Program-made: the position numbers and the translations under genes
Notes under the pieces: generated by a model
Told to the model about the DNA's origin: nothing
Seen by the model: the letters and a program-made list of their open reading frames with translations, nothing else
Database searches by the model: none
Shown here: positions 27,230 to 54,840 of the stretch, one piece after another
Layout: each line of letters starts with the position of its first letter
Numbering within the stretch: position 1 is the first letter of the stretch
NCBI GenBank assembly: GCA_949130485.1
Contig: OX422191.1
Location: 9,357,446-9,421,445, forward strand
Source: Agelas oroides
Taxonomy: Eukaryota; Porifera; Demospongiae; Agelasida; Agelasidae
Length of the DNA stretch: 64,000 nucleotides
Direction: 5' to 3'

Positions 27230-30200
27230 ATGGAAGGTAAACTCTACTATCTATGACACAACTGCTTGATTGAGCCAGTCGAGTCGGGGTTGCTGCAGAG
27301 AAGGGCCATCACAGTACATGTACATACATGTACATGGCAGGTTTTTAAATGGCATGCGTATAGAGGTTCTGCATGTGATGTCATCAAAAGGGTTAAATTT
27401 ATTAATTTTAATTTAATAGTCTTGCCAATTTTTCTAGGCAATAAGCAAGGTCTAAATAGCTTAAATCTCAAGTGAAAATTCTAAATTAATGATAGTTGAT
27501 TTTATATAAATTGTCAAAGTTTGATCTTTTAGCATTAACTTGTATGGTGAGTGGCAAATTTTGCCACTCGCTGTACAAATCCTATGCAAAATGTTTGACT
27601 TTAAGAATTTATATAAAATCAATGGAAAGGAGTTAGGCCTTCATATTTTAGATTTAAGTTAGCTGGACCATCAGTATTACCTGCAAATGTTTGGAATGGC
27701 TAATTATGAATTTTAAATTGGTGATGACGTCACTGCAGAACCTCTATACAACTTGTTCATTTAATAGGGCTCGCAATGGAAGTGCAGCAATTTCAAATCT
27801 AGAACTAAATATATATCGGAGATACAGACCGTAATAGTTGGTGCACAGAGCTACAAACTTGGATTTCAGCACACTTGATTCAAGGTTTAATATTCCATCT
27901 TTGATTTTTGCAATGAGGAGTGGTCGTGTAGCTATACTTTAGCCAGTACTCTAAAGTATCCACTTTGGTTTTTTATTGACCGATTACTATGAATGTTGGA
28001 GACCAAGATGGCCCAACACTGATTGACTTTGAGACTACTCTCTGTCGTACAGGTCAAGGTACAAAGCGAACTCAACCACAAGACGGTGCCAATGATCCTA
28101 AGAAGCCAAGGATGGCAAGGCGACCATATTGTGAAAAGTGTGCTGGCTGTCTAGAGAAAAACGATTGTGGAATCTGTGACAACTGCAAGTAAGGAATATG
28201 TGGGGAATGTCTGAAATGATAAATTTCTGGTTATTTGTCCCCGTAACTGTACATGAAGTAAGTTATTCATAGTTCGACTCTATCTGTTGATGTATCCAAT
28301 ACTTCAATAATTGTGCAATAATTTGACTCTCTTCTTGCAAAGGAAAAAAAAAAGGTTCGGAGGGGATGGCAAGCAAAAAGGAAGATGCATGTAAGTATGA
28401 GTTTCCCACTGCAAAAATGTGCTTGCAACTTGCTATATACATGATGATTACTATGGTCGTATGACTGAGCATAATAGGAGTCAAGACCACACAATCTGCA
28501 TTCCATACCCATATTACACGGACCATTAGATCAGTGCATAGAGTGGATCTGGAATGTAATATTTTGTTCTTGCATTATGAATACCCAGTATCAAGAGCAC
28601 ATGCATGATGATGTCATTTTCATCCATCCACAATAAAAATGACATTCTTGTTGGGATAAGATATCACCCAATTAGCATAGAAACTTTTTCTGCAGAAAAC
28701 GACAATGCCAGGAGCTGAAGTCTGTACCAAAAGAGAAAACCAGGAAGAAAAGCAAGTTTACATGGCTGAATATCATATACTCGTAATTATACTGTGTAGC
28801 TACATGCTTGTTAAATGGACTTTAAAAAAAGTACAAGGTTGATTTAACCCAAGGTGGGTCACCTCATGCAGTTCCGCCATTGCAAGCATGCAAGAATTTC
28901 GTTTGTTACCTATATTCACGGTTTACTGGAACTTTGAGTAGACAAGGGATATAACCCTAAACCATGGCAACAGGTGAGAGATAAGCCTGAGGCTACTGAG
29001 ATGACCTGTCTTTGGATAAATCAACCTCTAATTATTTTAATATTTGACGCATGGGCAGCTAGATACAAACTACCATAGAAACTGGTTGATAGGCACATAA
29101 TCATATACAGCTATAGTTTAGCGCATAATTTCAAATGGGTGCATAAATTCTTCCTGTCATTAGGAACTATTCAAATGGCACAACCACTTGTTACACATGT
29201 CATAACCCTGATGCATTTGTTCATATAAACTGCTAATAAGCACAGTAGGAAGTCACTTATCCAAACTTCAGTTATCCGAATCTTCACTTATCCAACCCCC
29301 TATAATAACGATATTCATCAATATTTTGATGTGCAATGTGTGCATTAAATGGAAAGTACTCTGCTTTGTATACAAATAGTATTGTTTCACTTCTCCAAAC
29401 ATTTCAGTTATCCGAACACCCTTCCATCCCAACGTGCTTGGATAAGCGACTTCCTACACAGCAAAAGCATTTGGGTTACTTCAACCGTTGTCTGAGTTGC
29501 ATCAGTGTGACCGAGGAATGCTACCAAATAGGTTTTCTTGAAAGTTCATCGAGGAGCTTTTTCAGTTCCATTAGTTAACCTCATCTTTTTTGTTGTTTCT
29601 TTCTTTGATCGTACACAGCTGCCCCTGGATAGTTGGTTGCATGGTTGTGGTAGTAATGCCAGGAATGTAGCCAAATAAGTCTTCTGAAAGATGAGGCTAA
29701 CTAATGGAACTGAAAAAGCTCCTCGATGAACTTTCAAGAAAACCTATTTGGTAGCATTCCTTGGTCACACTGATGCAACTCAGACAACCTAAAATGTGGT
29801 TGAAGTAACCCAAATGCTTTTGCTGTGTACTTGCTGCTGCATACAACAGGCGTAGGCACCAGTTTCTACTGTACTCAAGCTAGCTACTCTAGTACTGTTT
29901 CTGGCTACAATGTGATTCATGAATATGTCATGCATGCACATGTACACACACCAATGTATGTCCAACCAGATGATCAACCACCACCACCACAACAACAGCA
30001 AATAGGTGAACTTACAGTTCAACTGAACCAAAACCTCGGAGATGGTTCATTTGGTACTGTGTACAAGGCAAGCTACCAAGGTACACCAGCGGCAGCCAAG
30101 TATCTCTACCACCCAGTGCAAGACTATGAGAGTTTCAAACACAAGCTGGAAACCCTTCAACAATTAACCCATCCCAATCTAGTTGCCTACTACACAGAAA

Positions 30201-33200
30201 TCATGTGTCCCGGTCCACAAAGCAGACGTCCAATTCTAGTCATGGAGCTAATGGAGAAAACCCTGACACAGTTTCTTGAAGAAGCAGAGCACGACATCCT
30301 GATCCACTTGCAAGTCAATCTTTGTCTTGATATCACGTTTGCACTAGCGTACCTTCACTCACAGCAGATAGTGCATGGTCACCTGACCAGTAACAATGTT
30401 CTCCTTGTTGGCACAACTGCAAAGGTGGCTGACTTCGGAATGTCCAAGCTCCTCGATACCCAGTCTTCTGTTACGCAGCCTGCTTCATACTTGCCTCCAG
30501 AGGCAAGGCTGTCTCATCCAGAGTTTTCTGAGAAATGTGATGTCTTTAGCCTTGGTGTGCTGTTAGTTCAGATCATTACTAAGGAAGCGCCCACACCTGA
30601 TACTAGGGAAACGCTCACACCTAGTATTAGGGAACAGCAGCTTGATGTCATCAGTCTTGGTGGGCGGGTAGTTCAAATAGTAACAACCATTCCTCAACAA
30701 CAGCTTGCCCCTCTCTCTGAGGTAGACAGGAGGCAGCAACACATCCAGAAGATTGTGTCTACACACCCCTTACGAGATATCGCACTTCAGTGTCTCAAAG
30801 ATACTGCAATGGAGCGTCCAACAGTAAAGAAAGTTGTAACCAAACTCAATGCAGTTAGGTATCATCCACAGTATGAAGATAGCTTGAAACAGGAAAGAGA
30901 AAAGGCTCAACGGGAGGTTGCACAGCTGAAAGAAAAGCTGAAATCAAAAGAGGAACTTGCCCTGAAAGAGATACAGGAGAGTGAAAAACAAATGCGGCTA
31001 GCTCGACGGGAGATTGTGCAGCTACAAGCAGAGTTGAAATCAAAAGTGGAGTTTACCCAAAAGCAGAAACAGGAGAATGAGAAACAGAAGGAAGTACTAC
31101 TGCAGCAAGTGAAAGAGAGAGATCAGGAAATTGCATCTATTCGACTCACTTTTGGAAAACAGCATCAAACATTGCTGGCTTTGAAAAAAGAGGTAGAAGT
31201 CAAATCAATACAAGTACAAGACAGGAACAAACAAATCCTGAAACAGAGCCAGGAAAGTCAGAAGCAGATGGGATTAGCTCAACGGGAGATTGCGCAGCTG
31301 AAAGGAGAGCTGAAATCAAAGGAGGAACTTGCCCTGAAAGAGAAACAGGAGAGTGAGAAACAGATGGAAAAATTACAGCAGCAACTGAGAGAAAAAGAGT
31401 TGAGAATCACAACCGTTCAAACTGCTTATGGAACACAACATCAAGCACTACTGGTTATGACAAGCAAGCTACACGAGTCAGAAGGAGCGCTGGCTTTGAG
31501 AAAAGAGCTAGAAGAAAAAGTTCAGGACAAAGATGAACAAATCCAAGCATGTGAAATGGAAGTCAAGAAACTTTTACAGCAAAGTCAGAAAAAAGATGTC
31601 AAGATTTCAGAGTTGGAGGCGTGGAAGAAGACCATTAAGGACAAAACCACATCTCTAGTCTCAGGAGCAGAGCCAACATCAAAGGAGGAAGAAAAAGAGA
31701 AGTTTTTGTACTCTTCAGGTACATCTATAATCTACATGCAAGTGACTATTTAATACAAAGGGCACATTGACTTCAGCGGCTTGATAAGCCCTTGGTACAA
31801 TCCATAAATTTAAGTATCCATGGTTTGGAAATAGGACCACACTTAGAAATTTACCAAAAGTGGTCTTTTTTTATAGGAAAGTCAAAATATTTGGCAACTG
31901 CATGCACAATCATATTTATATATGTTTCTTGTATGTTGTAGTTTTGTTACAGAAACTATACAGTCAGATAAAGCAACTCACCTACATTGCATACAGTGTG
32001 TGAATTAAAATGTAATCTTTCAATCTAGCTACAGCACACATGCAGGGAACTGAAGTTATTGCACAAAGAACCTTTACTATCACACAGGAAGCTGTTGACC
32101 TTGACTTTGAAGGCTATGGATTCAAGCTACATGTTCCAGATGGCAGTCTACCAGCAGAAGTATCAGAAACACAGTTAGATGTGCGAGTTAGCTTGTCTGG
32201 CCGGTTTCAGATGCCTTCCGCTTCCAAACTCGTCAGTGCAGTCTATTGGGTCTCCAGTCCCCACAAGTTCACGAAACCCGTCACTGTCGAGATACAGCAC
32301 TGTGCTTTACTTGCTAATGATAAACAGCGTTCACAGCTTACATTTGTCCATACCATGCATACCCAGAAGAACCTTCCTTACTTATTCATGGAGCACGACG
32401 GAGGAGTCTTCACTCCCCACAGCTCATATGGTAGCTTATCACTATCCCACTTCTCTGGCATTGGTATAGTAGTTAGACGAATCCTTCGAGTGTTATTCGG
32501 ACTTCAGTCAATTGACTCAAAGCTAGGACAACAACAACAACAGCATATTCAGCAAGTGCAGCCAGCAATAGGGCAGGACATTGACTCAAAGCTAGGACAA
32601 CAAGAACAACAACAGTTGCCTGAATCATTGGTTTGCACTGAAGCAGCTCGTCAGACTGGGCAGGAAGAAGGGGGAGAGGTAGTTGAGCAATACTGTGCTC
32701 AACTCTACACAAGCAAGTTGGTCAATGAATGGAAGGTGGACTTTGTTGTCACAAAGGATCTTGATAGTTGTTTAACTGTAAGTATAAAACTACTAAATTA
32801 TTGTACGCATGTTCTTAGATGTACATACTCCACACAGGTTGTAAAAAAGGAGTACTACACTCATTGTATACGACAGTTCTCATTCGTGTTCGCTTTTAAG
32901 GAAGACCTCATTTCCCTCAAAATTCCTGAGAAGGACCAAGAGCTTGATGGGTGGAAAGTCACTCCTTTCTATATCCCTAAAGTAAGCTGCTTTTTGCATG
33001 ATATAGTAATGAATGACTGTCATTGTTAGCCTTATTTAGTTAGTCATTGTCTTCTCTGTTATTGAAGATCACAAGGCAGCAGGTTAATCACTTCAGTTCT
33101 GGGAAAAACATTCCCAGATGTGAGCTGCTTCTGCGGTGGTGTAAAGATTCACCACCAGTTTGCTTGCAGTGTGAAATTGGTCTGCTTGGTGCATGTGATC

Positions 33201-34292
33201 ACAGCTACTTCGTACTGCATCTTGATCCAGGTACATACTATCATTACAATAACTACATTTAGAGCATATTAGAGCTTATGTAGCTATATGTTCATATACA
33301 GTTGCGGAGATATCCACTCAAGAAATAGGTGAGCTGACTACTCTGACCTTCTTGGAGTATGCATGGTTGAATATACAATATTGTTTAATATGCATGGTTG
33401 AATATGCATGGTGTTGAATATACAGTATTGTTGCATCAAGGTGAAAATTGCTAGGGCGTCAATGTTTAAGCTACTTCTCTACATGATTGGGTAAACATGA
33501 GCAAGCTGCTTCAAGTATGAGCAAAATCGAGGGCCTCTCATCTGCAGATGAAGCACATAGCTACGTATTCATACATTTTTTGGCTGTGTAGCTATTAGCT
33601 AACAGCCCTTCACTCTCCATTTTGGTGACTGTAAATTGCGATACATATACATATGCAGGGCCGTATCATATGCAGGCAGCGGTTTTGGCCAATGCACTTT
33701 TTTCAACGTGAACCTTGAGCTTAAATTAATGCTTAAAGGCTGCTGCGTGTCGGCTAAGTTACGTGCAATCTGCGATCACTAGCTACCCCAGTGTGGACGT
33801 GTAGCTAGTAACTTCTGAAATCCTGCTTGCCATGAAATACAGAAAATACGATATTTTTGTCCCAAAATTGGCTTCAGAAACAATCTCTGAGCATGTAATT
33901 TAAAATAATTTCCTGGGGAGGGTACAATATAATTAAATCCATGGGTAAGAGCAAACATCGTACAAATGTGATGATGCAGTTTTACGTGCTTGTTACCTGC
34001 AGTCCCGGAGAAACAAATCAAGCTGAAGGATGTGTATGAAGACCTAATTGACATCTCCCACCACTGGCATGACCTTGGGCTGCAACTAGAACTGGAGGAA
34101 GGAACACTGGAAAATATCAAATCGGACAATCCTGAGAGTGCACAGCATTGCCTGAGAGAAATGCTAAGCACATGGCTGAAAAATGAGAGAAGGCCAACGT
34201 GGCAGACCTTGTGTGCTGTCTTGCGCAGTAGAACTGTTGGTGCAGAGAAATTAGCTAGTGACCTGGAAGCAAAGTACAAGAAAATGAACTGA
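27230..34292 (+). CDS. CPK1: CXXC zinc finger-pseudokinase-coiled coil-ZU5-Death protein
   Basis: Exons 27230-27236 (ATGGAAG start exon), 28053-28188, 28343-28390, 28696-28751, 29970-31718, 32029-32777, 32838-32981, 33068-33230, 33302-33328, 34003-34292: 1123 codons. An alternative start at 27989 reads into the CXXC exon and is also in frame. CXXC finger at about 29-68 (CEKCAGCLEKNDCGICDNC, then RFGG). The TKL-like kinase domain has the glycine loop GDGSFG (106-111), AAAK lysine (126), DFG and PPEA. HRD is replaced by HGH (IVHGHLTSNN), so it is probably an ATP-binding pseudokinase. A coiled coil of over 300 residues follows, then ZU5 (about 678-780, FKLHVPDGSLP), a UPA-like stretch, and a Death domain nearly identical to the one in the ROCO gene. 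The acidic linker exon of CPK2-5 was not found. Nuclear DNA reading coupled to death-fold signalling is inferred. Confidence 0.78.
29247..29459. repeat. MITE with AGTAGGAAGTCACTTATCCAA ends
   Basis: TAGGAAGTCACTTATCCAA at the left and TTGGATAAGCGACTTCCTA at the right are inverted repeats about 210 bases apart. Intron of CPK1. Confidence 0.85.
29457..29832. repeat. Large imperfect palindrome upstream of the CPK1 kinase exon
   Basis: Arms of about 130 bases (29457-29587 and 29688-29832) are inverted copies: AGCAAAAGCATTTGGGTTAC pairs with GTAACCCAAATGCTTTTGCT, and AGGTTTTCTTGAAAGTTCAT with its complement. A 100-base loop separates them. It would form a strong hairpin in the pre-mRNA. Confidence 0.92.
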
Positions 34293-34746: not shown

Positions 34747-36569
34747 ATGGAAGGTAAATGAACGCAACAGCGGGTGGTTTTGTGAGTATGCTAAAACTAT
34801 GATAGAAGACAGCACTAGTCAAAAGACCTGTACCAATCTTTTAATACGGAGCAATATTTGGGATATCTGTCAATGTTTTGAAGTGCTTTTTTGTTTGTAG
34901 GTAACTCGGCAAATTGGTATACAACTAGCTTACTTTTGTTTCTCACTCCTTGAGACTAAATGCATATCTCACACAACCCAGCAACCTATTTCATATGATG
35001 GGAGGAAGGTACTGGTCTACCCCCCACCCCCCAACAAGATGCAAAATGTGAATAGTAGATTGCACTCTACGTGCTAGGATGACTCAAAATAGATTTAGCT
35101 ATACCACTTACTCTCTCACTGTATACAGGTCAAGGTAGAAAGCAAGCCAGGCCACATCATGCTGCTAGAATGCCAAGGAGGAAAAAGCGAAAATATTGTG
35201 GAAAGTGTACTGGCTGTCTAGAGAAAGAGGATTGCAGAATTTGTCCAAACTGCAAGTAAGAATGTACACAACAGAAGTGTCACAAACCAGCATTTGGTGC
35301 ATGTAGCCTTGCTTCCAGGCTTCCCACTGTCTAGTGTGGTTCCGACTCAAGGATCTTCGCTGAAGAGAAGTGTCCTAGAAGCCATCTGGATAAAGCCATC
35401 TGCCTGCCTATATCAGTCTTGTATTGTGCATATTCTCCTCATTCAGCTGACAAAGGTCCACGGACCGAAACGTCCTGCACTGTTGTTGCCAATTTTTATG
35501 CTATGCTAAGCTAAAAAGATCTCTGAATCACTGTTCATAACATAGCAATGAACTTCTACGACATAGATTTTTTGTTTAGTGTTTGTAGCCAGGCTCAGTG
35601 ATAATCACTGTGTTGTACTATTTGACATTCACTACCCTCTGCACACAAGACAGACGGACCAACACCTTGTGTAGAGTAGTTGGTTTGTCTGTCCACTAGT
35701 CACTCAAACTTTCATATGAAGCAAAGTACTTTTCACTCAGACTGGCTTACAATTATGCTGCATGACCTGTGGACTTTGCTCTCCATTTTGTTCTTGTGAA
35801 GGGATCAACGAAGATATGGAGGGCCTAACAAAAGACACGCACGGTGCCTGTAAGTATGATATAGGTATTTATTATACTTCTACAATTCTCCTATTCCCAT
35901 GCCGTGCAATATCACATGTGCAGTAACTCGCGATATTGCACGCTAACTCGTGTAATATATATGTATAAGACAGATGTAGGTATGATATATACATGCTTGG
36001 AGTTATTGAGTCCTTACAATCAATGATGTAAAGAAAGCAAGCAAGGTATACATACTTTTGAGAAAATTATACAATCGGTGACAACATGTGCATTATGTAC
36101 AGAAATTTCTTCTAGAAAACGACAATGCCAGAAACTGAAGCACGTACCAAACAAGCAAACTAACAAAAAAGGCAAGTTTATATAATAATATCACAGTCAC
36201 ACTTTATTCATATACATGCTTGTTATGATTTGTGTATGTGCTTGTTAGGATAGTTGGAAAGCGTGTGTCAGCTACCAAATCTGGAATTGCTGGTGGAAGT
36301 GAAGCTACTGGGAATCTAATTGGTGGAGATCAGTCAGTAGCACAAATTGGAGGAGAGAAGACAGCTAACCTTGTGAGTGCCTCTGTGACTGGCGACAATG
36401 AAGATTCTTATTCCAGTGAATGGAGTTCTACTGATGTTTCAGAGGATGAAGATCAAGATACAGGTGAGTATTGATGAAACTCCTCCATATAGTGTTAATA
36501 TACCAGAATTATGATTAATTGATTGATGTTCCAACTAGATGTTACTGGTGATCAACAGCAGCAGCAGAG

Positions 36570-36637
<68 letters not shown>

Positions 36638-37854
36638 GACAACAACAACAATTGCATATAGGCGACCTTACAATAAAACTGAACCAAAACCTTGGAGATG
36701 GTTCATTTGGAACTGTGTACAAGGCAAGCTACCAAGGTATACCAGCAGCAGCCAAGTGTCTCTACGATCCAGCGCGCGATGAGGGGAGCTTTAAATATGA
36801 ACTGGAAACCCTTCAAGGACTCATCCATCCCAATCTGGTTGCCTATCAAACAAACACCACGCGTCCTGGTCCACAAAGCAGACGTCGTCCAATCCTTGTA
36901 ATGGAGCTGATGGAGAGAAACCTGACGCAGTTTCTTGAAGAAGCAGAGCACGACATCCCGATCCATTTGCAAGTCAGTCTTTGCTTGGATATAACTTTCG
37001 CACTAGCGTACCTTCACTCACAGCAGATAGTGCATGGTCACCTGACCAGTAACAATGTTCTCCTTGTTGGCACAACCGCAAAGGTGGCTGACTTTGGAAT
37101 ATCCAAGCTACTTGATACCCAGTCTTCTGTTACGCAGCCTACTTTGTACACGCCACCAGAGGCAAGAGTGTCTCATCCAGAATTTTCTGAGAAATCTGAT
37201 GTCTTTAGCCTTGGTGTGCTGTTAGTTCAGATCATTACTAGGGAAGCGCCCGCCCCAACTCCTCAACAACAGCTTGCCTCTCTCTCTGAGGTAGACAGGA
37301 GGCAGCAACACATCCAGAAAATTGTGTCTACACACCCCTTACGAGAGATCACACTCCTGTGTCTCAAAGATACTGCAACGGAGCGTCCAACAGCAAAAAA
37401 TGTTGTAACTAAACTCAATGCTGTTAAGTATCGTCCGCAGTATGAAGATAGTTTGAAACAGGAAAGAGAAATGGCTCAACAGGAGATTGCACAACTAACT
37501 AAAAAGCTGAAATCAGAGGAGGAATTTGTCCTAAAACAGAAACAGGAGAGTGAGGAATTACACCAACAGCTGAAAGAAAAAGACCAGAAGATTGCAGATG
37601 CTGAAATACAACATCAAGCACTACTAGAAAACAAGTCAGAAAGAGTACGGGACTTGAAAAAGGAACTAAAAGAAACAGAAACAAAGCTAAAAAATGAGTC
37701 AAAAAAAGTTCAGGACAGAGACAGACAAATCCGAGCAAGTAAGATGGAACTGAAGAAACTTGAACATCAATGTAAGGAAAAAGATGTGATGATTTCAGAG
37801 TTGAAGAGTACTATGGATAAAATTGTGTCACTAGCTTCTGCAGCAAGGCAATAA
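34747..37854 (+). CDS. CPK2: CXXC zinc finger-polyQ-pseudokinase-coiled coil protein
   Basis: Exons 34747-34753 (ATGGAAG), 35129-35255, 35802-35849, 36116-36171, 36254-36463, 36539-37854: 588 codons (587 aa). All eight CXXC cysteines are kept ([19 protein letters not shown]), but the KFGG motif is RYGG and a family glycine is Arg, so CpG binding may be altered. An acidic Ser/Glu/Asp linker (SSEWSSTDVSEDEDQD) precedes about 35 glutamines encoded by mixed CAA/CAG. The kinase domain (about 195-430) has GDGSFG, AAAK, HGHLTSNN in place of HRD, DFG and PPEA. The coiled coil (about 440-587) is shorter than in CPK1 and CPK3, and there is no ZU5 or Death domain. The third CXXC exon uses a GC donor (36172). 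AATAAA at 37959-37964 may be the polyadenylation signal. Confidence 0.8.
36550..36657 (+). repeat. Coding CAA/CAG repeat (CPK2 polyglutamine)
   Basis: About 35 Gln codons with two Arg interruptions at the start of the kinase exon. Equivalent tracts are at 47710-47811 (CPK4), 53488-53635 (CPK5), a short one at 41608-41655 (CPK3) and a residual one at 29985-30003 (CPK1). Confidence 0.95.
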
Positions 37855-38443: not shown

Positions 38444-41400
38444 ATGCAAGGTAAAGGCACAACCGCAATTGTGAAGTCAGACCTCGCATAATTGCTGCAG
38501 ACTATTACAGGGTAGCTAGAAGTATTAAGACTAGTCGTGTAGTATGCTGCCCTGTTCTTCGTGTGTGTATACCTATGTCTATGATAACATGGTGTTCCCT
38601 TTTCTTCAATACATTGTACTCGATCCTATTAGCATATCATGCTTGTACCTCATGATCTGACTATAGTTAAGTAGCATTGATCGAACTTCAACCAACGCTA
38701 AATATCAGCCAAACAGCAACATGGTGTGCTAAACTTTAATGGAAGCCAATATATATAAACAGGGACAGCGCTGGTCAGTAGACCTGTATACCAATCTTAA
38801 ATGAGCAATGTTTGGTTGGGGTAGAAGAGGTTGACCACTTTTTAAAAGTGTTTCTTGGTTGTGACTAACTAAGCAGATGGTAATGACTTCTACAGTTAGC
38901 TTAGGTGCTCACTTTGCGAACTACATGCATATCTCTCCCAGAATCCAGCAGCAACTGGCCTTTCCATATGATGGTAGGATGGGCAGGGAGAATGATTGGA
39001 ATGAATCAACCATCTGTGGGGGATACTAGCCCGTCAGGAGTTCCTGCACCCACTGCTCCCCAGTACAACCTGGACACACCCACCACACCAGGCAGAGGAA
39101 ACAGTAAGTGAACTGTTACCTTTCCCCCTGAACTGTGAACTGTTACCTTTCCCCCTGAACTGTGAACTGTTACCTTGCACATCGTTCTCCCAGAATTCAG
39201 CAGCAACCAGCCATTTCATATGACAGGAAGAGGAGGAAGCCGGATAGGGGGAGTGAATCAACCATTTGTGATGGGTACTAGCCAGTCGGGAGTTCCCACA
39301 CCCTCTGCTCCCCAGTACAACCTGGACACACCCACCACCGTGCCAGGCAGAGGAAACAGTAAGTGAGCTGACACACACAAGAAGACATGTACCTGTAGTG
39401 TGTCACCATCTTTCCCTCTCAGCGTATCATTTTATTGTGATCAAGGCCAAATGCTATAGTATATGTAATAGTAGATTACACTCCACTACTCAAGACTCAA
39501 GAAAAAATTTAGCCATACCACTCACTCTCTCACCATATACAGGTCAAAGTAGAAAGCGAGCCAGGCCACAAGATGATGCCAACGATGCTAAAAAGCAAAA
39601 GAAGCAAACAAAAAAGCGACCATACTGTGGAAAGTGTATCGGGTGTCTAGAGAAAGAGGATTGTGGAATCTGTGCAAACTGCAAGTAAGAATGACACTGC
39701 AGTAGGTAGCCTCGTTCCCAGGCCCCGCCCAGCTTTCCGTCACTTATAGTACGATAAAGTGGGAGAGGGCCTGGTATCTTTTCTCACATGAGTGACGTCA
39801 GGATAGAAGGATGGTAGAAAGGGTTTAATTGAACGTGGGCGAGAGTGACTGCAGCATGGTAACGTGTCCATGCATATATGCCTATAGCGAACTGTAAGCG
39901 ACGGAAAGCTGGGCGGAGCCTGGGAACGAGGCTAGCAGTAGGCTCGTTCCCAGGCCCTTCTGTCAATGCAGTAAGCAGAATGCTCCAATGCTCAGCAGAG
40001 CCTGGAAACAAGGCTAATGCTGCAGTAAACTATCACTCAAACCAGGTTTTGATGATGAAATGTAGCGAACAAGAGGTGCCAAGCTTCATGCATATACATG
40101 CTGAAGTTAAACAAATTGGAATTATTAATCAGTCTTTAAATTTTAATTTTATCCACCAGTAGGGTATAGCAACTTCAGCGCACAATATCAATTAGGAGGT
40201 CTGTGGACATACTTCCCATTTGGAGCCTGATTTAACCACTAAGTCATTGTTTAGTGCCTGTAGCTGAGCTAGTACAGTGGCATTCACTATATTGTGCTAT
40301 CATTCACTACTCCAACATGCAGACAGACACCTTGTATATGTGTGCATACACAAGTGGGATAGAGCAATTGATCTGTCTATCCAGTAACCACTCAAACTTT
40401 CATATGGAGCAAAGCACCTTTTATTGCACATGAAAGAACCAGATAATACAGTCATTCATGATTTAACTCTACTATGGTCTTAACTTTGAAGGGATAAACC
40501 AAAGTCCGGAGGACCTGGCACGAAACATGCACGATGCATGTAAGTGTGATTATAATCATTAGCTAAACTGTACTACAATGTGGTTACTACAGTTGCAATA
40601 TGCTTGGAGTAACTAAGGCCTCACAATCAACAGTTTATAGTATGCATACCCCTGAGCCCTGATTAACCCTTTTTCTTCAATTTATCCTTCCATGATATTT
40701 TTCATGTTTTCGAAGTTTATTGTTTCGAATTTATAAATTTCCATGCATGATTTTTGGTGCAGACAAGAGGTAGGAAAGAGAGGTAACTATAAAGTGAGGC
40801 AAATTTTCATGAATATATTAAACAGAGTTCAACCTTATGGAATTTGAATACCAGCTAGCATGTACCATTTTTAAAAGGGATCTATAATTATATGGTTGGT
40901 GTCAACATCTGTTTTAGCACAGAAATTTTATCTAAATGTATAGAAAACGACAATGCCAGAAACTGAAGTATGGACCTAAAGAGCTAACCAGTAAGAATGG
41001 TAAGTGTGTATTGATCTCGCTTCCAGGCACTCTTGGGAACGAGAATTAGTTTGTATACCTTTAGGCCATAGTAACAAAAATGATAGCTTCTGGTCATTGC
41101 CCGCATCTAAAAAAGAGCCCCTCGCTTCCAGGTTTTTTAATAAAGCAGCCAGAAAATTAGTGAAGATACTGGCGTTAGTGAACATTGACATTGGTTTCTA
41201 CCTTATTAAATAATACCACCCGCTTGCATGGATTTTAAAAATCTGACCAGAAACTATGCATTTTGTTACTATAGCTTTTTGTGCATAAAATTAATGTTTG
41301 TTACAATAGTTGGAAAGTGTGTGGCAGCTACCAAGTCTGGAGCTGCTGGAAGAAGCCAAGCTACTGGGAATCCTAGGGGAGCTAGGAATTTGTCGTCATC

Positions 41401-43502
41401 AAAAACAAATGAAAATGGAGGAGGGAAGACAGCTAATCTTGTGAAGGCCGGAAACTTTTGTGACAGTAAAGATTCCTCCACCAATGGTTGGAGTTTTTCT
41501 GATGTTTTAGAGGATGATGAGCAAAAAGATCAAAGTGCAGGTAAGACGAAGCTTTTCTGTGTGCACATGTACGTACACCATCATTAATATTTCAACTCCA
41601 GGTGATCAACAACAACAGCAGCAGCAACAACAAAAACAACAACAATTGCAAATAGGCGACCTTACAGTACAACTGAACCAAAACCTTGGATATGGTTCAT
41701 TTGGTACTGTGTACAAGGCAAGCTACCAAGGTACACCAGTGGCAGCTAAGTACCTCTACCACCCAGTACGTAACTATAAGAGTTTCAAGCACGAGCTAGA
41801 AACCCTTCAAGGGTTCATCCATCCCAATCTGGTTGCCTATCGAGCAGCAGCCATGGGTCCTGTTCCACGAACCAGTCACCCAATTCTAGTCATGGAGCTA
41901 ATGGAGAAAAGCCTGACACAGTTTCTTGAGGAAGCAGAGAATGACATCCCGGTCCACTTGCAAGTCAATCTTTGCCTAGATATCACCTTTGCACTAGTTT
42001 ACCTTCACTCACATCAGATAGTGCATGGTAAATTGAGCAGTAACAATGTTCTACTCGTTGGCACAACAGCAAAGGTGGCTGATTTCGGAATGTCCAAGCT
42101 ACTCGATTCCCAATCTTCTGTTATGCAGCCTGCTTCGTATCTACCACCAGAGGCAAGAGTAACTCCTTCACAGAAGTCTGATGTCTTCAGCTTTGGGGTG
42201 CTGGTAGTTCAAATAGTAAGTAGGGAAGCCCTCACATCCCTGAATCCTCGACAACAGATTGCCCCTCTCTCTACGGTAGACAGAAGGCAGCAACATATTC
42301 AGAAAATTGCCTCTGCACACCCCTTACGAGATATCGCAATTCTGTGTCTCAGAGAGTCTGCAATGGAGCGCCCAACAGTAAAGAAAGTTGTAACTAAACT
42401 CAGCACAGTTAAGTATCATCCACAGTATGTGGCTAGCTTGAAGCAGGAAAGAGAAAAGGTACAACGGGAGATTGCGCAGCTGAAAGGAAAGCTGAAATCA
42501 AAGGAGGAATTTGCCCCGAAAGATAACCAGGAAGATCAGAAACAAATGGAAATAGCTAAACGGGAGGTTGCACAGCTGAAAGAAAAGCTGAAATCAAAGG
42601 AGGAACTTGCCCTGAAAGAGAAGCAGGGAAGTCAGAAGCAAATGGAAATAGCTAAACGGGAGGTTGCACAGCTGAAAGAAAAGCTGAAATCAAAGGAGGA
42701 ACTTGCCCTGAAAGAGAAGCAGGGAAGTCGGAAGCAAATGGAAATAGCTAAACGGGAGGTTGCTCAGCTAAAAGAAAAGCTGAAATCAAAGGAGGAACTT
42801 GCGCTGAAAGATACCCAGGAGAGTGGAAAACAAATGCGGCTAGCTCGACGGGAGATTGTGCAGCTACAAGCAGAGTTGAAATCAAAAGTGGAGTTTACCC
42901 AAAAGCAGAAACAGGAGAATGAGAAACAGAAGGAAGTACTACTGCAGCAAGTGAAAGAGAGAGATCAGGAAATTGCATCTATTCGACTCACTTTTGGATT
43001 ACAGCGTCAAACATTGCTGGCTTTGAAAAAAGAGGTAGAAGTCAAATCAATACAAGTACAAGACAGGAACAAACAAATCCTGAAACAGAGCCAGGAAAGT
43101 CAGAAGCAGATGGGATTAGCTCAACGGGAGATTGCGCAGCTGAAAGGAAAGCTGAAATCAAAAGAGGAACTTGCCCTGAAACAGAAACAGGAGAGTGAGA
43201 AACAGATGGAAAAATTACAGCAGCAACTGAGAGAAAAAGACCTGAGAATCACAACTGTTCAAACTGCTTATGGGACACAACATCAAGCACTACTGGTTAT
43301 GACAAGCAAGCTACAAAATGAGTCAGAAGGAGCACAGGCTTTGAGAAAGGAGCTAGAAGAAAAACTACAGGACAGAGACAAACAAATCCAAGCGTGTGAG
43401 ATGGAAGTCAAAAAAATTTTACAACAAAGTCAGAAAAAAGATATAAAGATTTCAGAGTTGGAGGCATGGAAGAAGAACACCAAGACAAAATCTCATCTCT
43501 AG
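38444..43502 (+). CDS. CPK3: CXXC zinc finger-pseudokinase-long coiled coil protein with duplicated N-terminal motif
   Basis: Exons 38444-38450 (ATGCAAG), 38942-39103, 39194-39358, 39543-39684, 40492-40539, 40944-40999, 41310-41540, 41602-43502: 904 codons (903 aa). Two consecutive exons encode variants of an unassigned 54-residue motif (PFHM, NQPxV, TSxSGVP, PQYNLDTPTT). CXXC finger at about 140-179 ([19 protein letters not shown]), with KSGG instead of KFGG. The polyQ is short. The pseudokinase has GYGSFG, VAAK, HGKLSSNN in place of HRD, DFG and PPEA. The coiled coil contains three tandem 32-residue units (42546-42833, AKREVAQLKEKLKSKEELAL). Compared with its paralogues the last codons are frame-shifted (ending KTKSHL), replacing the usual SLASAAEQ end. 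AATAAA at 43741-43746. Confidence 0.8.
42546..42833 (+). repeat. 96-bp coding tandem repeat, three copies
   Basis: Each unit encodes 32 coiled-coil residues starting MEIAKREVAQLKEKL. The first two units are almost identical, indicating recent expansion in CPK3. Confidence 0.9.
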
Positions 43503-45400: not shown

Positions 45401-45449
45401 GATCAACTCCCATGAGATCAACGTGATCTCGTGGGAGTTGATCTTGTAG
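45401..45449. repeat. Near-perfect hairpin
   Basis: CAAGATCAACTCCCATGAGA pairs with TCTCGTGGGAGTTGATCTTG with one mismatch and a very short loop. Confidence 0.9.
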
Positions 45450-45677: not shown

Positions 45678-47739
45678 ATGACAGGAAGAGGAGGAAGGAT
45701 AGGGGGAGTGAATCAACCATTTGTGATGGGTACAAGCCAGTCAGGAGTTACCACACCCACTGCTCCCCAGTACAACCTGGACACACCCACCACCGTGCCA
45801 GGCAGAGGAAACAGTAAGTGAACTGTCACACACCCCAGTAGTGTCTCACCATCCTTCCCCCTCAACATGCATACACGTATCATTTTGATGTGATCAAGGC
45901 CAAATGCTATACCATACGCAATAGTAGATTACATTCCACTGAAGTGCAAGATGACTCGAGAGGGATTTAGCTATACCACTCTCTCACTGTATACAGGTCA
46001 AGGTAGAAAGCGAGCCAGACCACAAGATGATGTTAATGATCCCAATGATCCTAAAAAGCCAAGGAGGAAAAGACGATCACGTTGTAAAAAGTGTATCGGT
46101 TGTCTAGAGAAGGAGGATTGTGGAATCTGTATAAACTGCAAGTAAGAGTAATGTTTGGTGTAACCTCAGTTGCTGTATGCAAAGACAAAGCAGTGGCTGG
46201 ACGGCCTGGGAGATTTTATCAGTCTGATAACAATATGCAAAGGACAAAAGCATCTGGGGGTGGAGGGGGGTCTATAGGATGTACTCCCCCAGAAAAATTT
46301 TTACAGCCTTATAAGTTCGTTATGATTATGGTCACTGGCAGGCAAGGAATTTGTTGTTTAATGGTTTGTCACTCCAATTTTCCTATGAAGCAAGGCACTT
46401 ATCATTTTGTATGTAACAGACTCAGGCTGGCATACGTAAACTACTTAACAATTGTCTCTGCTCTTAACAATTGTCTCTGCTCTTAACAATTGATTCTGCT
46501 CTTAACAATTGTCTCTGCTCTTAACAATTGTCTCTGCTCTTAACAATTGACTCTGCTCTCAACAATTGACTCTGCTCTTAACAATTGTCTCTGCTCTTAA
46601 CAATTGACTCTGCTCTTAACAATTGACTCTGCTCTTAACAATTGACTCTGCTCTTAACAATTGACTCTGCTCTTAACAATTGACTCTGCTCTTAACAATT
46701 GACTCTGCTCTCAACAATTGACTCTGCTCTTAACAATTGTCTCTGCTCTCAACAATTGATTCTGCTCTTAACAATTGACTCTGCTCTCAACAATTGACTC
46801 TGCTCTTAACAATTGACTCTGCTCTTAACAATTGACTCTGCTCTTAACAATTGACTCTGCTCTTAACAATTGACTCTGCTCTTAACAATTGACTCTGCTC
46901 TTAACAATTGACTCTGCTCTTAACAATTGACTCTGCTCTTAACAATTGACTCTGCTCTTAACAATTGACTCTGCTCTTAACAATTGACTCTGCTCTTAAC
47001 AATTGACTCTGCTCTTAACAATTGACTCTGCTCTTAACAATTGATTCTGCTCTCCATTCTGTTCTTGTGAAGGGATAAACCAAAGTTTGGAGGGCCTAAC
47101 AGAAGACATGCACCATGCGTGTAAGTATAATGTTTATGTTCTGGAAGATTTGGTTCACTATTCACTCTTGTCTGCATCATTGAGCAGGGGAGTCCATTTT
47201 AGATTCCAAACAGTAAAAACACTCTTTTACTTTGTACATGTGTACTGGATTACAACATTCAATTCACACAAACTTTCTTCTAAATGTATAGAAAACGACA
47301 ATGCCAGAAACTGAAGTATGGACCTAGAGAGGAAACCAGTAAAAATGGTAATTTGTACAATACATGTTATTATCATACGTCTAACTCACGCTAATGTTAG
47401 TTATACGTTTATTCATATATATGCTTGTTATGATAGTTGGAAGGCGTGTGTCAGCTACCAAATCTGGAATTGCTGGTGGAAGTGAAGCTACTGGGAATCT
47501 TGGTGGAGATCAGTCAGTAGCACAAATTGGAGGAGAGCAGACAGCTAACCTTGTGACCACCTGTGTGACTGGTGACAACGAAGATTCTTATTCCAGTGAA
47601 TGGAGTTCTACTGATGTTTCAGAGGATGAAGATCAAGATGCAGGTGAGTATTGATCTGAACAGTGTCATCAGAATTATGATTCTAATTGATGTTCCAACT
47701 AGATGTTACTGGTGGTCAGCAACATAAGCAGCAGCAGAG

Positions 47740-47781
<42 letters not shown>

Positions 47782-49198
47782 GCAACAACAACAACAACAA
47801 CAACTGCAAATAGGTGACCTTAGTGTACAACTGAACCACAGCCTAGGAGATGGTTCATTTGGTACTGTGTACAAGGCAAGCTACCAAGGTACACCAGCAG
47901 TAGCCAAGTATCTCTACCGCCAAGTGTGTGACTACGAGAGCTTCAAGCATACGCTGGAAACCCTTCAAGGTTTAACCCATCCCAATCTGGTTGCCTATCG
48001 AGCAGCAGCCATGTGTCCTGGTCCACAAAGCAGACGTCGTCCAATTCTAGTCATGGAGTTGATGGAGAGAAACCTGACGCAGTTTCTTGAAGAAGCAGAG
48101 CACGACATCCCTATCCACTTGCAAGTTAGTCTTTGTCTTGATATAACTTTCGCACTAGCATACCTTCACTCACAGCAGATAGTGCATGGTCACTTGACCA
48201 GTAACAATGTTCTCCTTGTTGGCACAACTGCAAAGGTGGCTGACTTTGGAATATCAAAGCTACTCGATACCCAGTCTTCTGTTACGCAGCCTGCTTTGTA
48301 CACACCACCAGAGGCAAGGCTGTCTCATCCAAAGTTTTCAGATAAGTTTGATGTCTTTAGCCTTGGTGTGCTCCTAGTTCAGATCATTACTAGGGAAGCA
48401 CCCGCCCCAATTCCTCAACAACAGCTTGCCCCTCTCTCTGAGATAGACAGGAGGCAGCAACACATCAAGAAGATCACCTCTACACACCCCTTACGAGATA
48501 TTGCACTTCAGTGTCTCAAAGATACTGCAATGGAGCGCCCCACAGCAAAAAAAGTTGTAACCAAACTCAGCGCTGTTAAGTATCATCCGCAGTATGAAGA
48601 TAGCTTGAAACAGGAAAGAGAAATGGCTCAACGGGAGATTGCACAGCTGAAAGAAAAGCTAAAATCCGAGGACATGAAACAGAAACAGGAGAGTGAGGAA
48701 TTACACCAACAACTGAAAGATAAAGACAAGAAAATTGCAGATGCTGAAATACAACATCAAGCACTAAAGCTGGTTCTAGAGAATGAGTCAGAGAGAGTCC
48801 GGGATTTGAAAAAGGAGCTAGAAGAAACAGACACAAAGCGGGAGACAATCATTGCACAGCTGAAGGAAAAGATAACAGCAAAGGAGGACTATAACCTCGT
48901 ACAGAAACATGAGAGTCAGGAACAGATGAAAAAACTACAGCAGCAACTGAAAGAAAAAGAGCAGGAAATCACATCTGTTCAAATTTTGTATGGGAAACAA
49001 CATCAAGCACTACAGGCTTTGAAAAAAGAACTCGTTGAAAAAGTTCAGGACAAAGACAAACAAATCCAAGCATGTGAGACGGAAGTCAAGAAACTTTTAC
49101 AGCAAAGTCAGAAAAAAAATGAAAAGATTTCAGAGTTGGAGGCGTGGAAGAAGACCATTAAGGACAAAATCACATCTCTAGCCTCTGCAGCAGAGTAA
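45678..49198 (+). CDS. CPK4: CXXC zinc finger-polyQ-pseudokinase-coiled coil protein with relocated start
   Basis: Exons 45678-45813, 45997-46141, 47073-47120, 47292-47347, 47437-47643, 47703-49198: 696 codons (695 aa) from ATG 45678. The ancestral start exon is mutated (ATA at 45167-45169), and two bases are missing from the N-terminal motif exon (CATATGACA became CATGACA), creating the in-frame ATG used here. CXXC finger at about 75-114 ([23 protein letters not shown] kept). The acidic linker is followed by about 25-30 Gln. The pseudokinase has GDGSFG, AVAK, HGHLTSNN, DFG and PPEA. The coil tail has VRDLKKELEETDT and KQHQALQALKKEL. The N-terminal half is nearly identical to CPK5, marking a recent duplication. 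Intron 2 carries the 19-bp minisatellite. Confidence 0.78.
46443..47052. repeat. 19-bp minisatellite, about 32 units
   Basis: Tandem CTTAACAATTGACTCTGCT units with few variants (GTCTCTG, GATTCTG), ending 20 bases before the acceptor of the second CXXC exon of CPK4. The equivalent intron of CPK5 has only about four units (52416-52492). Confidence 0.97.
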
Positions 49199-49814: not shown

Positions 49815-52800
49815 ATGGAGCTGAAGACGGCCGCAGTGGAGCCCATGGCAAGACCCTCTCTGCAGCAAATGCTGGCCACCATTCCACCGCAAAGTCAGCA
49901 GATGTTGGATCAAACGGTCAGTGACGCTCACTTGGCGAAGATCGCGAGGGCGTTGATCGACTGGAAGTCGGTTTGTACTAACCTGGGGATCAGCGAGGCT
50001 GAGGAGGTGGCGATTAAAGAAGAGAACCAAGGAACAGATGCGCGGAGGTATCAGAGCTACGTACTATAGAGCTTTCGTCCCCATCTGTCCAACTAACTCT
50101 GATATAGTGTAGCCTACTATCACTAAAGAGTAGCCTTGTTCTAGTTCCATCCGGGATGTAGGAAAATTGGTTCCATATCTGTTTTGACTTTGACATCATA
50201 GATAGTGTAGTGTACTGTAGGACTACAACTCTACTATCTATGCATAGGCCTATATTATAGTTTGTGCATGGAGAGTGAACAGAAACACAAGTTCTCCATG
50301 ATTGTACTTAAGTAACTGCTGTAATACTAACGTTGTTTAGACGGGCTGTATTGCGGAGATGGAGGTCGAGGTATGGTCCAAATGCCACGTACAGAAACCT
50401 TGCTAACTGTTTCTACCATGCTGACAAGCTAGATATGGTGGAGACAGTATGTCAAGCCCTAGGAACACCCAGCAGTTCCATCATCCAACAACAAGAAGGT
50501 ATGTTATGACTCTAAATCTAAGTTTCATTGCATTTGGCTTTCTCCAAGTCCTCTCTTCTCCCTCAGTGCATGTTAATTAGAGAACACACTGAGTATAAAG
50601 TTATTCATCTGCGGAATGCAAATTCTTTCCAGTTCTACGTACCTGTATCTTCTCTCTTAACCGCAGAAGGCAGCTCTGTATGTGTGAGTGTCATCAATAG
50701 CAGTAGCTGTCAGGAACTGCACTCAGTCCCGACACATGGATTCAGCAATACAAGCACCGCCAGTGGTTCAAACACAGAGGTGACAAGATTTAATGTCCTT
50801 GGCAGTCAACCTTCATTTCAACAGCTAAGTCCTAGTGAGCAAGAGGAGCTCCAGGAAACATTAGATGAAGATGTGAGGAGGATGAGACGTCTGTTTGGCA
50901 GCTTAGTCACACGAACACGTGACTCTGTCGAAGAGCGAATCACAGTACGAAACTTTGCAGGAAGTATTCTAGCACTGGGGGCATATGAGCCGGCTCCTGG
51001 AGAGCGAGATCGGTCACTTCTTGATGAACATAGAGAAGAAATTAATAGGGCTACAACAATTTCAGAAATTTTTAATATCTTGTGTGCCTACTGGAACTAT
51101 CTCAGTTATGAGGTCTTAGAGTATATCATAGAACACTATGGCACAAGTGACGATACTGAGAGACTGACAAGATATAATGAAGAGCTTTGCAGGTTCTGTG
51201 AGCGTAGAATTTTTGAACTTCCTTTGCCTGCGAGTGGCAATGGTGCTGGCAATGCATTGAGTCCAAGACAAGAGAAGTTTGTTGTAAAGCTCAACGTTCG
51301 TGAAGATATTACTTCTCAAGAGCTTCGCCAGATCAAAGGAAGAATTGCTAGAATTCTTAATGTGAAACCGGCTACATTGATCATCCACAGTGTGGACCTA
51401 GGATGTGTGCAGCTAACCTTTCTGATTCCCAAATTTGTAGCTCAAGAGATATTCCCACTTTCCGAGAAGCAAACATCAGCACTCTCCAGGGATGCATCTG
51501 TCGTTAGGCTGGTGTGCGGAGATTATTTGTTTAAGGTATTCAGCAGCAACCAGCCATTTCATATGACAGGAAGAGGAGGAAGGATAGGGGGAGTGAATCA
51601 ACCATTTGTGATGGGTACAAGCCAGTCAGGAGTTCCCACACCCACTGCTCCCCAGTACAACCTGGACACACCCACCACGCCAGTCATAGGAAACAGTAAG
51701 TGAACTGTCACACACATCAAGACATGTACAAGTAGTGTGTCACCATCTTTCCCCCTCAACATGCATACACGTATCATTTTAATGTGATCAAGGCCAAATG
51801 CTATACCATACGTAATAGTACCACTGAAGTGCCAAGATGACTCAAGAGGGATTTAGCTATACCACTCTCTCACTGTATACAGGTCAAGGTAGAAAGCGAG
51901 CCAGACCACAAGATGATGTTAATGATGCCAATGATCCTAAAAAGCCAAGGAGGAAAAGACGATCACGTTGTAAAAAGTGTATCGGTTGTCTAGAGAAGGA
52001 GGATTGTGGAATCTGTATAAACTGCAAGTAAGAGTGATGTTTGGTGTAACCTCAGTTGCTGTATGCAAAGACAAAGCAGGGGAAGGCCTGGGAGATTTTA
52101 TCAGTCTGATAACAAAGCACAAAAGCATCTGGGGGGAGGGGGGTCTATAGGGATGTACTCCCCCAGAAAATTTTTTACAGCCTTACAAGTCAGTTATGAT
52201 TATGGTCACTGGCAGGCAAGGGATTTGTTATTTAATGCTCGTAGACGAGTTAGTGAAGTGGCTATCATTGTGTTGTGCTATTTCACATTCACTAATCTCT
52301 GTACACAGATGACAGACACCTTTGTAGAGTAATTGGTTTGTCACTCCAATTTTCCTATGAAGCAAGGCACTTATCATTTTGTATGTAACAAACTCAGGCT
52401 GGCATACGTAAACTACTTAACAATTGACTCTGCTCTTAACAATTGATTCTGCTCTTAACAATTGATTCTGCTCTTAACAATTGATTATGTTCTCCATTCT
52501 GTTCTTGTGAAGGGATAAACCAAAGTTTGGAGGGCCTAACAGAAGACATGCACCATGCGTGTAAGTATTATGTTCTGGAAGATTTGGTTCACTATTCACT
52601 CTTGTCTGCATCATTGAGCAGGGGAGTCCATTTTAGATTCCAAGCAGTAAAAATGTTGTTCAGTCTTTAATTTGTACATGCATACTGATTACAACATTCA
52701 ATTCACACAAACTTTCTTCTAAATGTATAGAAAACGACAATGCCAGAAACTGAAGTATGGACCTAAAGAGCAAACCAGTAAGTTTGTACAATACGTGTTT

Positions 52801-53516
52801 TTATCATACGTCTAACTCACACTAATGTATGGGAGTCAATGGGGAAGCCTTGCAGCTGCACGCAGTTTATAAAAAGCCGTATTTTTTTACTACAAGTCAC
52901 GCGAGAATCCGTATCAGTACTGCAAGTCACGCGAGAATCCACATCAGGTACTACAAGTCACGTGCGCTGCGTCTGAACGTCCAATGAAATCGAAGGTTCG
53001 TACGATAAAATCATTATCACCATAGTACCAAGCTATACCGGAAAAAATATCACTCGTTTGTTGCCGTTGGCATTGTTACTCGTGCTGCGCACTCGTAACA
53101 ATACAGACGGCAACAAACTCGTGATATTTTCCGGTATAGCTTTGTACTATGGTGATAATTATATAATATCATAGTTATATGTTTATTCATGTACATGCTT
53201 GTTATAATAGTTGGAAGGCGTGTGTCAGCTACCAAATCTGGAATTGCTGGTGGAAGTGAAGCTACTGGGAATCTTGGTGGAGATCAGTCAGTAGCACAAA
53301 TTGGAGGAGAGCAGACAGCTAACCTAGTGACCACCTGTGTGACTGGCGACAGCGAAGATTCTCATTCTAGTGAATGGAGTTCTACTGATGTTTCAGAGGA
53401 TGAAGATCAAGATGCAGGTGAGTATTGATCCGAACAGTGTCATCAGAATTATGATTCTAATTGATGTTCCAACTAGATGTTACTGGTGGTCAGCAACACA
53501 AGCAGCAGCAGCAGAG

Positions 53517-53559
<43 letters not shown>

Positions 53560-53571
53560 AAGCAGCAGCAG

Positions 53572-53606
<35 letters not shown>

Positions 53607-54840
53607 GCAACAACAACAACAACAACAACAGCAAATAGGTGACCTTACAGTTCAACTGAACCAAAACCTCGGAGATGGTTCATTTGGTACTGTGTACAAG
53701 GCAAGCTACCAAGGTACACCAGCAGCAGCCAAGTACCTCTACCACCCAGTGTGTGACTACGAGAGTTTCAAGCATACGCTGGAAACCCTTCAAGGTTTAA
53801 CCCATCCCAATCTGGTTGCCTATCGAGCAGCAGCCATGTGTCCTGGTCCACAAAGCAGACGTCGTCCAATTCTAGTCATGGAGCTGATGGAGAGAAACCT
53901 GACGCAGTTTCTTGAAGAAGCAAAGCACGACATCCCGATCCATTTGCAAGTCAGTCTTTGCTTGGATATAACTTTCGCACTAGCGTACCTTCACTCACAG
54001 CAGATAGTGCATGGTCACCTGACCAGTAACAATGTTCTCCTTGTTGGCACAACTGCAAAGGTGGCTGACTTCGGAATGTCCAAGCTACTTGATACTCAGT
54101 CTTCTGTTACACAGCCTACTCTGTACTTGCCACCAGAGGCGAGAGTGTTTCATCCAGAGTTTTCTGAGAAATCTGACATCTTTAGCCTTGGTGTGCTGTT
54201 AGTTCAGATCATTACTAGGGAAGCGCCCGCCCCAACTCCTCAACAACAGCTTGCCCCTCTCTCTGAAGTAAACAGGAGGCAGCAACACATCCAGAAGATT
54301 GCCTCTACACACCCCTTACGAGAGATCACACTATTGTGTCTCAAAGATACTGCAATGGAGCGTCCAACAGCAAAAAAAGTTGTAACCAAACTCAATGCAG
54401 TTAAGTATCATCCGCAGTATGAAGACAGCTTCAAACGGGAAAGAGAAATGGCTCAACGGGAGATTGTACAGCTGAAAGAAAAGCTGAAATCAAAGGAGGA
54501 ATCTGTCCTAAAACAGAAACAGGAGAGTGAGGAATTACACCAACAACTGAAAGAAAAAGAGCAGAAGATTGCAGATGCTGAAATACAACATCAAGCACTA
54601 CAACGGGTTCTAGAAAACAAGTCAGAAAGCGTACGGGACTTGAAAAAGGATCTAGATAAAACGGAAACAATGTTAAAGAATGAGTCAAAAAAGGTTCAGG
54701 ACAGAGACAGAGAAATCCGAGCAAGTAAGATGGAAGCCAAGAAACTTGTGCAGCAATGTAAGGAAAAAGATGTAAAGATTTCAGAGTTGAAGAGTACTAT
54801 GGATAAAATTGCGTCACTAGCTTCTGCAGCAAGGCAATAA
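49815..54840 (+). CDS. CPK5: Death-module-CXXC zinc finger-polyQ-pseudokinase-coiled coil protein
   Basis: Exons 49815-50047, 50341-50498, 50667-51695, 51883-52027, 52513-52560, 52731-52777, 53211-53417, 53477-54840: 1077 codons (1076 aa). Residues about 30-118 form an N-terminal Death domain (DWKSVCTNLGIS, YRNLANCFYHADKLDMVETV). Residues about 180-420 contain a module (ILCAYWNYLSYEVLEYIIEHY, ELCRFCERR, ATLIIHSVDLGCVQLTFLIP) that I recognise as recurring in sponge and cnidarian Death/NLR-type proteins but cannot name. It runs without an intron into the NQPFHMTGRGGRIGG motif, which is a separate exon in CPK3 and CPK4. CXXC finger at about 503-542. The polyQ is the longest of the family. The pseudokinase has GDGSFG, AAAK, HGHLTSNN, DFG and PPEA. 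The coil ends DKIASLASAARQ, like CPK2. Confidence 0.8.
53016..53160. repeat. Foldback MITE in a CPK5 intron
   Basis: TTATCACCATAGTACCAAGC and inner CACTCGTTTGTTGCCG pair with the right arm ending GTACTATGGTGATAA. Absent from the homologous CPK4 intron, so it inserted after that duplication. Confidence 0.88.

Follow-up and report, generated by a model that had tools for sequence, protein, structure and literature searches.

In a 64,000-nt window of the genome of the sponge Agelas oroides (contig OX422191.1, here C9, positions C9:9357446-9421445, forward strand; G+C 39-50% per 2 kb), five tandem units, U1-U5, are located between 27,989 and 54,840 and were modelled as the genes CPK1-CPK5. As read from the sequence, the five genes encode a short N-terminus, a region resembling a basic nuclear localisation signal joined to a CXXC zinc finger, an acidic linker, a poly-Q tract, a pseudokinase and a coiled coil, in this order, with the linker not in CPK1. 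The best explanation, which we hold with about even confidence, is that these genes form a lineage-specific family of putative nuclear pseudokinase scaffolds with a re-tooled CXXC finger. A first-pass annotation had proposed a lineage-specific expansion of a CXXC-pseudokinase-coil family, and the gene models, selection tests and genome-wide linkage agreed with this in the one sponge genome searched (259.3 Mb, 141 contigs). The annotation had also called the family undescribed. No CXXC-kinase family was found among the open-licence PMC papers listed, and the term 'cxxc' occurs 0 times in the main text of a paper on NLRs in Dysidea avara (PMC12909245), but absence in print is more than these sources can show.

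Each unit holds three exons for the CXXC finger (E1, E2 and E3), followed in U2-U5 by the acidic linker exon E4 and in all units by one large exon, E5, which encodes the Gln tract, the kinase and the coil. From direct reading of splice sites and phases, 5/5 units gave open frames when spliced in silico. E1 and E2 end in phase 2 and E3 and E4 in phase 1, which makes E4 a phase 1-1 exon. A first exon with an ATG, E0, was found in CPK3-CPK5; it ends in phase 1 and fits E1. The start of CPK1 is an ATG that lengthens E1. A GC donor is used at E3 in U1, U2 and U0, the last being a sixth CXXC module outside the array. The five units with their exons, the fixed phases of the CXXC exons in every unit (here read as 2-2-1), and the presence of E4 in CPK2-CPK5 but not, as far as we found, in CPK1 were thus recovered as first annotated. 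The exons are listed here in window coordinates.

27989..28188, +, CPK1 (U1) E1: ATG, basic region, N-half of CXXC; phase 2 donor CAA/gtaagg
directly before about 28053, +, CPK1: CAG, the acceptor of E1 common to the copies
28343..28390, +, CPK1 E2: middle of CXXC, RFGG, 7th Cys
28696..28751, +, CPK1 E3: C-part of CXXC, KRQC, 8th Cys; GC donor; phase 1 end
29970..31718, +, CPK1 E5: short Q/P tract, pseudokinase (HGH), coiled coil; donor CAG/gtacat, common stop lost
35129..35255, +, CPK2 (U2) E1
35802..35849, +, CPK2 E2
36116..36171, +, CPK2 E3: GC donor
36254..36463, +, CPK2 E4: acidic linker, phase 1-1
36539..37854, +, CPK2 E5: poly-Q, pseudokinase, coil, stop; AATAAA 105 bases past the stop
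38947-39108, +, CPK3 (U3): second, diverged copy of E0
39220..39358, +, CPK3 E0: ATG, MTGRGG..., phase 1 donor
39543..39684, +, CPK3 E1
40492..40539, +, CPK3 E2: KSGG
40944..40999, +, CPK3 E3
41310..41540, +, CPK3 E4: linker
41602..43502, +, CPK3 E5: Q tract, pseudokinase (HGK), long coil with 96-base repeats; final residues shifted relative to the other copies
45678..45813, +, CPK4 (U4) E0
45997..46141, +, CPK4 E1
47073..47120, +, CPK4 E2
47292..47347, +, CPK4 E3
47437..47643, +, CPK4 E4: linker
47703..49198, +, CPK4 E5: poly-Q, pseudokinase, coil, stop
51563..51695, +, CPK5 (U5) E0: tail of the longer open frame 50522-51703
51883..52027, +, CPK5 E1
52513..52560, +, CPK5 E2
52731..52777, +, CPK5 E3: 9 bases shorter, shifted donor, phase 1 kept
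53211..53417, +, CPK5 E4: linker
53477..54840, +, CPK5 E5: poly-Q, pseudokinase, coil, stop
55043-55684, second coil frame after CPK5 E5
13852-13978, 14400-14447 and 15231-15286, +, U0: sixth three-exon CXXC module, outside the CPK array

Phases, open frames and linkage agree with a putative fusion of CXXC finger, pseudokinase and coil in one transcript. Alternatively, the CXXC exons and the kinase-coil exon could be separate neighbour genes that were duplicated together, with translation of the kinase beginning at an ATG that precedes the Q tract. An in-frame ATG of this kind does exist in the unspliced kinase frame, near the tract in U1, U2, U4 and U5 and farther upstream in U3 (a candidate start is, for example, MFQLDVTG in U2, U4 and U5); the relatives of the kinase described below are usually single-exon genes without a nearby CXXC, and neighbours would stay together by tandem duplication alone. 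However, E3, E4 and E5 share phase 1 in every array copy that has E4, only one of the three frames of E4 is open in 4/4 copies and this is the frame used in the gene model, and the shifted E3 donor in U5 preserves the phase. Furthermore, the CXXC exons are linked to the kinase in 7/7 copies at two loci; no search was made for other terminal exons that the CXXC part might have. We give the two-gene arrangement a low but appreciable probability. In the CPK1 intron, at the site of the missing linker exon, there is also a fold-back element (29487-29788) with 102-base arms that are 98% complementary.

A kinase domain was identified with Pfam in 5/5 E5 exons (best E 1e-38 to 3e-36). The HRD motif is altered to HGH in four array copies and to HGK in CPK3; the position of the aspartate is occupied by His in four and by Lys in one of the five. 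The Gly loop, the beta-3 Lys, the alpha-C Glu and the DFG motif are retained in all five. Kinase-like proteins without this Asp have been taken as non-kinases (PMC2754085), and the loss of the HRD Asp in 5/5 array copies supports the first annotation of the CPK kinases as pseudokinases. Downstream of the kinase, the hydrophobic 3.5-residue periodicity was above all 2000 shuffles in 5/5 copies (the period grid was finer for the observed value than for the shuffled sequences), and the coiled coil is predicted from this periodicity alone. Matches in the PDB settle no subfamily, as EGFR, a Src/Abl ancestor, LRRK2, Fyn, ITK and BTK score alike. An AlphaFold prediction from an alignment of the five kinases was uninformative (predicted local distance difference test, pLDDT, 34) and was not used.

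HER3 and JAK JH2 are pseudokinases without the catalytic Asp. The CPK kinases resemble them in having an altered HRD together with a retained beta-3 Lys and DFG, but differ in an architecture that includes CXXC and poly-Q. The LRRK2 kinase, which has a similar Gly loop, was among the best PDB matches, but no Roc-COR was found in the CPK genes by domain scan.

When the genome was searched with the CPK5 kinase, 145 matches were obtained at 144 places, the split match of CPK1 being counted once. Identities to CPK5 were 79-100% for the array copies and 35-48% for 137 others. Two further CPK kinases were found 2.9 Mb from the array, at C9:6487883 (83%) and C9:6493424 (82%), in units referred to as U6 and U7. 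An E1-type CXXC lies 1.4-2.1 kb upstream of 7/7 CPK kinases, and a CXXC was detected within 5 kb of 0/137 other scored relatives; about 0.6 kinase-CXXC pairs would be expected by chance. The general zf-CXXC profile gave 91 uninterrupted matches in the genome, the nearest of which to any of the kinases was 5.1 kb off. The single exons point in the same direction. The CXXC exon E1 matched the seven CPK copies and U0, with eight weaker matches elsewhere. The linker exon E4 matched five places, every one a CPK copy. E0 had five matches that belong to four CPK copies, two of them in front of CPK3, and one weak match on another contig.

Among the 137 relatives, 23 were read, mostly high-scoring rather than randomly chosen. 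HRD was kept in 22 of these and the remaining one was unmatched by the motif; a CXXC pattern occurred in 0/23 of the stretches fetched. Coil-like sequence continues the kinase frame in the relatives read, and Kelch repeats follow the coil in one of the two relatives scanned with Pfam. By similarity, the kinase-coil half of the CPK genes thus belongs to a large family of single-exon kinase-coil genes, some members of which have Kelch, with which E5 shares the kinase fold (35-48% identity) and an in-frame coil. In contrast to the CPK copies, the sampled members keep HRD and are without CXXC, and the Kelch repeats of the one relative were not found in the CPK genes. The CPK copies form one close clade in this genome. 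With HGH in U6 and HGR in U7 in place of HRD, 7/7 CPK copies have lost the catalytic Asp, in contrast to the sampled relatives. Outside this genome, the best 80 of 371 matches in a contig collection were bacterial kinases with identities of at most 34%, a search of viral contigs gave no relative, and Rfam gave no match at gathering scores.

The zf-CXXC domain (PF02008) scored above the curated cut-off in 6/6 spliced modules (U0-U5; E 2e-14 to 4e-11). All six have the eight zinc-binding Cys in canonical spacing with the basic flanks also kept, and the basic stretch KRARPQDDVNDANDPKKPRRKRR resembles, by eye, a bipartite nuclear signal. The closest solved fingers are those of KMT2B and KMT2A, which bind CpG, and the first annotation had linked the family to recognition of unmethylated CpG. 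KFGG is present in U0, U4 and U5 (RFGG in U1, RYGG in U2, KSGG in U3). According to PMC12361114, it is the KQ pair following KFGG that hydrogen-bonds CpG. This (K/R)Q pair, however, is replaced by RA in U0, KG in U1 and HA in U2-U5, the residue aligned to KMT2A Q1187 being Ala or Gly in all copies, and the Gln is lost in U6 and U7 as well. In KMT2A, both K1186A and Q1187A are reported to compromise DNA binding (PMC9249231). Ten fingers were fetched for comparison from the 91 zf-CXXC places and read by eye; nine were readable, of which eight keep KQ or RQ (four of the eight being near-identical repeats), and the ninth, of another subtype, has neither. Because the Gln is lost in every copy and kept in 8/9 other fingers, recognition of unmethylated CpG is doubtful for the CPK family, contrary to the first annotation, although this does not argue against DNA binding as such. 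A canonical CpG reader tethered to a kinase scaffold was therefore rejected as the main explanation, and we consider it unlikely.

The CPK fingers are otherwise like those of KMT2A and KMT2B, their best match among solved structures, in the eight Cys, DKPKFGG and the basic flanks. They differ in having RHAPC, KRARC, QKGRC and similar sequences in place of KKQCC and in being joined to a pseudokinase, and other KMT2 domains did not appear in domain scans of the CPK genes. Elsewhere in the genome, near-identical CXXC frames lie on several contigs (L131, L134, L137, L138; C6, C3, C3, C9), as if the finger travels in a repeat, and at one further place (L130) a CXXC finger and an OTU-type protease domain share one open frame.

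The neighbourhood of the array raises a different possibility, namely nucleic-acid sensing or cell-death signalling, in which the finger would bind foreign or damaged DNA and the pseudokinase-coil part, sometimes with ZU5 or Death domains, would relay the signal. The E5 of CPK1 lacks the stop that the other copies share, and a phase-keeping splice can connect it to the following exon:

32029..33029, +, ZU5 exon behind CPK1, phase-compatible with CPK1 E5; may be a separate gene

Death domain exons are present at about 33.98-34.3 kb, 49.8-50.5 kb and 20.3 kb, and E0 of CPK5 is continuous with an open frame that lies behind a Death exon. This frame (50522-51703, 393 amino acids) has no Pfam match at E 0.1. 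On the other hand, the closest relative of CPK1 is U6, which ends at the coil, and the sequence fetched around U6 gave no ZU5 match. Adjacency is also a weak argument, since ZU5-type exons have at least 112 matches in the genome and the domain of the frame before E0 at least 132, each count including the query itself. Finally, the Death exon is not in phase after the ZU5 exon at the sites scored. ZU5 and Death were thus rejected as general parts of the family. Because U6 has no ZU5 match and ZU5-type exons are numerous, we take the ZU5 behind CPK1 to be either a neighbouring gene or a fusion particular to this copy. Similarly, E0 of CPK5 most likely belongs to the CPK gene, because E0 was found in CPK copies only, save for the one weak match. 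Overall, a role in sensing or cell death seems quite improbable for these genes.

The exons of the pseudokinase scaffold family were also compared among the copies. Homologous exons vary in length by multiples of three only (E0 139/136/133; E3 56/47; E4 210/231/207; E1 127/142/145 where it begins at the common acceptor, as in five copies, the E1 of CPK1 being measured from its ATG). In 14 unit pairs, all but the very similar pair U4/U5, 67-100% of the bases in the CXXC exons were alignable compared to 1-25% in introns and flanks. The ratio of non-synonymous to synonymous rates (dN/dS) in E5, with columns that have Gln in both copies excluded, was 0.31-0.44 in 10/10 pairs, and in the CXXC exons it was 0.24-0.77 in 14/15 pairs. 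The excess of synonymous changes in the CXXC exons gave p 0.0003-0.048 across 15 ways of pairing the six copies. E4 gave 0.31-1.05 over six pairs, and E0 gave 0.23, 0.25 and 1.06 in three pairs with few changes. These comparisons show purifying selection on the CXXC and kinase exons. Chance as the source of the array pattern was excluded by the open frames, the phase-keeping lengths, the exon-biased conservation and the coil periodicity. The coils of CPK1 and CPK3 are 93% alike and their kinase parts 83%, which suggests that the units were duplicated with exchange.

The second locus has taken another course. U6 is akin to CPK1 and without E4; its E2 is one base longer than the others and its frame shifts near the kinase end. 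U7 is akin to CPK4 and has stops in E1 and E2, and in the fetched stretch it is without the Gln tract, the kinase N-lobe and the coil. Beside five open copies, these two show what unconstrained decay looks like. Repeats related to a 19-base repeat of CPK4 occur in U7; the CPK4 repeat has 32 copies in the E1-E2 intron (46444-47053), and 3.7 copies are present in CPK5.

Several points weigh against the family as we describe it. The gene models were drawn from genomic sequence alone, a search for a start exon of CPK2 came up empty, several splice sites score low (for example 0.2 on a hand-set scale for the CPK2 E4 acceptor), and AATAAA lies within 500 bases past the stop in only 3/6 gene ends tested. 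Constraint on the CXXC exons is moderate, with a pooled ratio of non-synonymous to synonymous proportions (pN/pS) of 0.57, and in the pair U4/U5 there are 3 non-synonymous changes against 0 synonymous ones. For E4, the CPK3 pairs give near-neutral values (0.79-1.05), and both copies at the second locus (2/7 of all copies) are broken. The linkage count is limited by the 144 of 523 first-look candidates that were scored in the CPK5-kinase search, and the scan could miss a diverged finger that is interrupted by introns. Nuclear location, oligomerisation and partners are features that we infer. A decaying pseudogene array from a dead kinase lineage would account for the broken copies, the nearly neutral E4 and the missing CPK2 start, but it is very unlikely given that all five genes of the array have open frames, conserved junctions and an E5 dN/dS below 0.5, and that U6 and U7 show how decayed copies look in this genome.

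The scaffold family that we favour could have arisen by a simple history. A CXXC module without a kinase (U0) and kinase-coil genes without CXXC (the relatives) both occur in the genome. In the simplest case, a CXXC module ended up in front of a kinase-coil exon and was joined to it in phase 1, after which the joined unit would have multiplied by tandem duplication with exchange, and the catalytic Asp would have been lost in the CPK clade. The product may be a nuclear scaffold associated with chromatin or DNA. The finger, keeping its zinc fold and basic surface, might bind DNA weakly, have another preference or bind a partner, and would bring the protein to DNA or chromatin. The coiled coil would make oligomers. 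The pseudokinase, with its nucleotide-binding residues kept and its catalytic base gone, might serve as an allosteric or docking domain, perhaps one that modulates the active kinase-coil relatives. A bolder version, to which we assign only a low probability, is that this sponge lineage converted an active kinase-coil family into dead, DNA-tethered regulators when it acquired a CXXC finger whose contact to CpG was lost. The result would be a new family of pseudokinases that sense chromatin or nucleic acids and recognise DNA with a new preference.

If the genes are transcribed as modelled, exon joining has placed a chromatin-type zinc finger and a kinase-fold scaffold on one chain. The same genome holds intact, decayed, finger-free (the active kinase-coil genes) and kinase-free (U0) states. 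It offers a direct way to study the behaviour of a CXXC finger that has lost its CpG-reading Gln, and how losing catalysis goes along with gaining a targeting domain.

The kinase-free module U0 has its own surroundings. No kinase exon similar to CPK E5 was found elsewhere in the window. Upstream of U0 lies a TAZ-type exon with a phase-compatible junction, and the junction to a downstream Roc-type exon at 17244 is compatible as well, so that a TAZ-CXXC-Roc gene is possible. A Roc-COR-like frame extends over 17192-20655, with Roc and COR-A matches below the Pfam cut-offs; the Death exon at about 20335 within this frame is 85% identical to that at 33978-34299. TAZ-type zinc finger exons at 4870-6013 and 12937-13700 form an inverted duplication. 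Beyond the array, on the minus strand, the window contains an NmrA-like gene (56493-57398) and a GGACT/AIG2-like gene (59212-59643).

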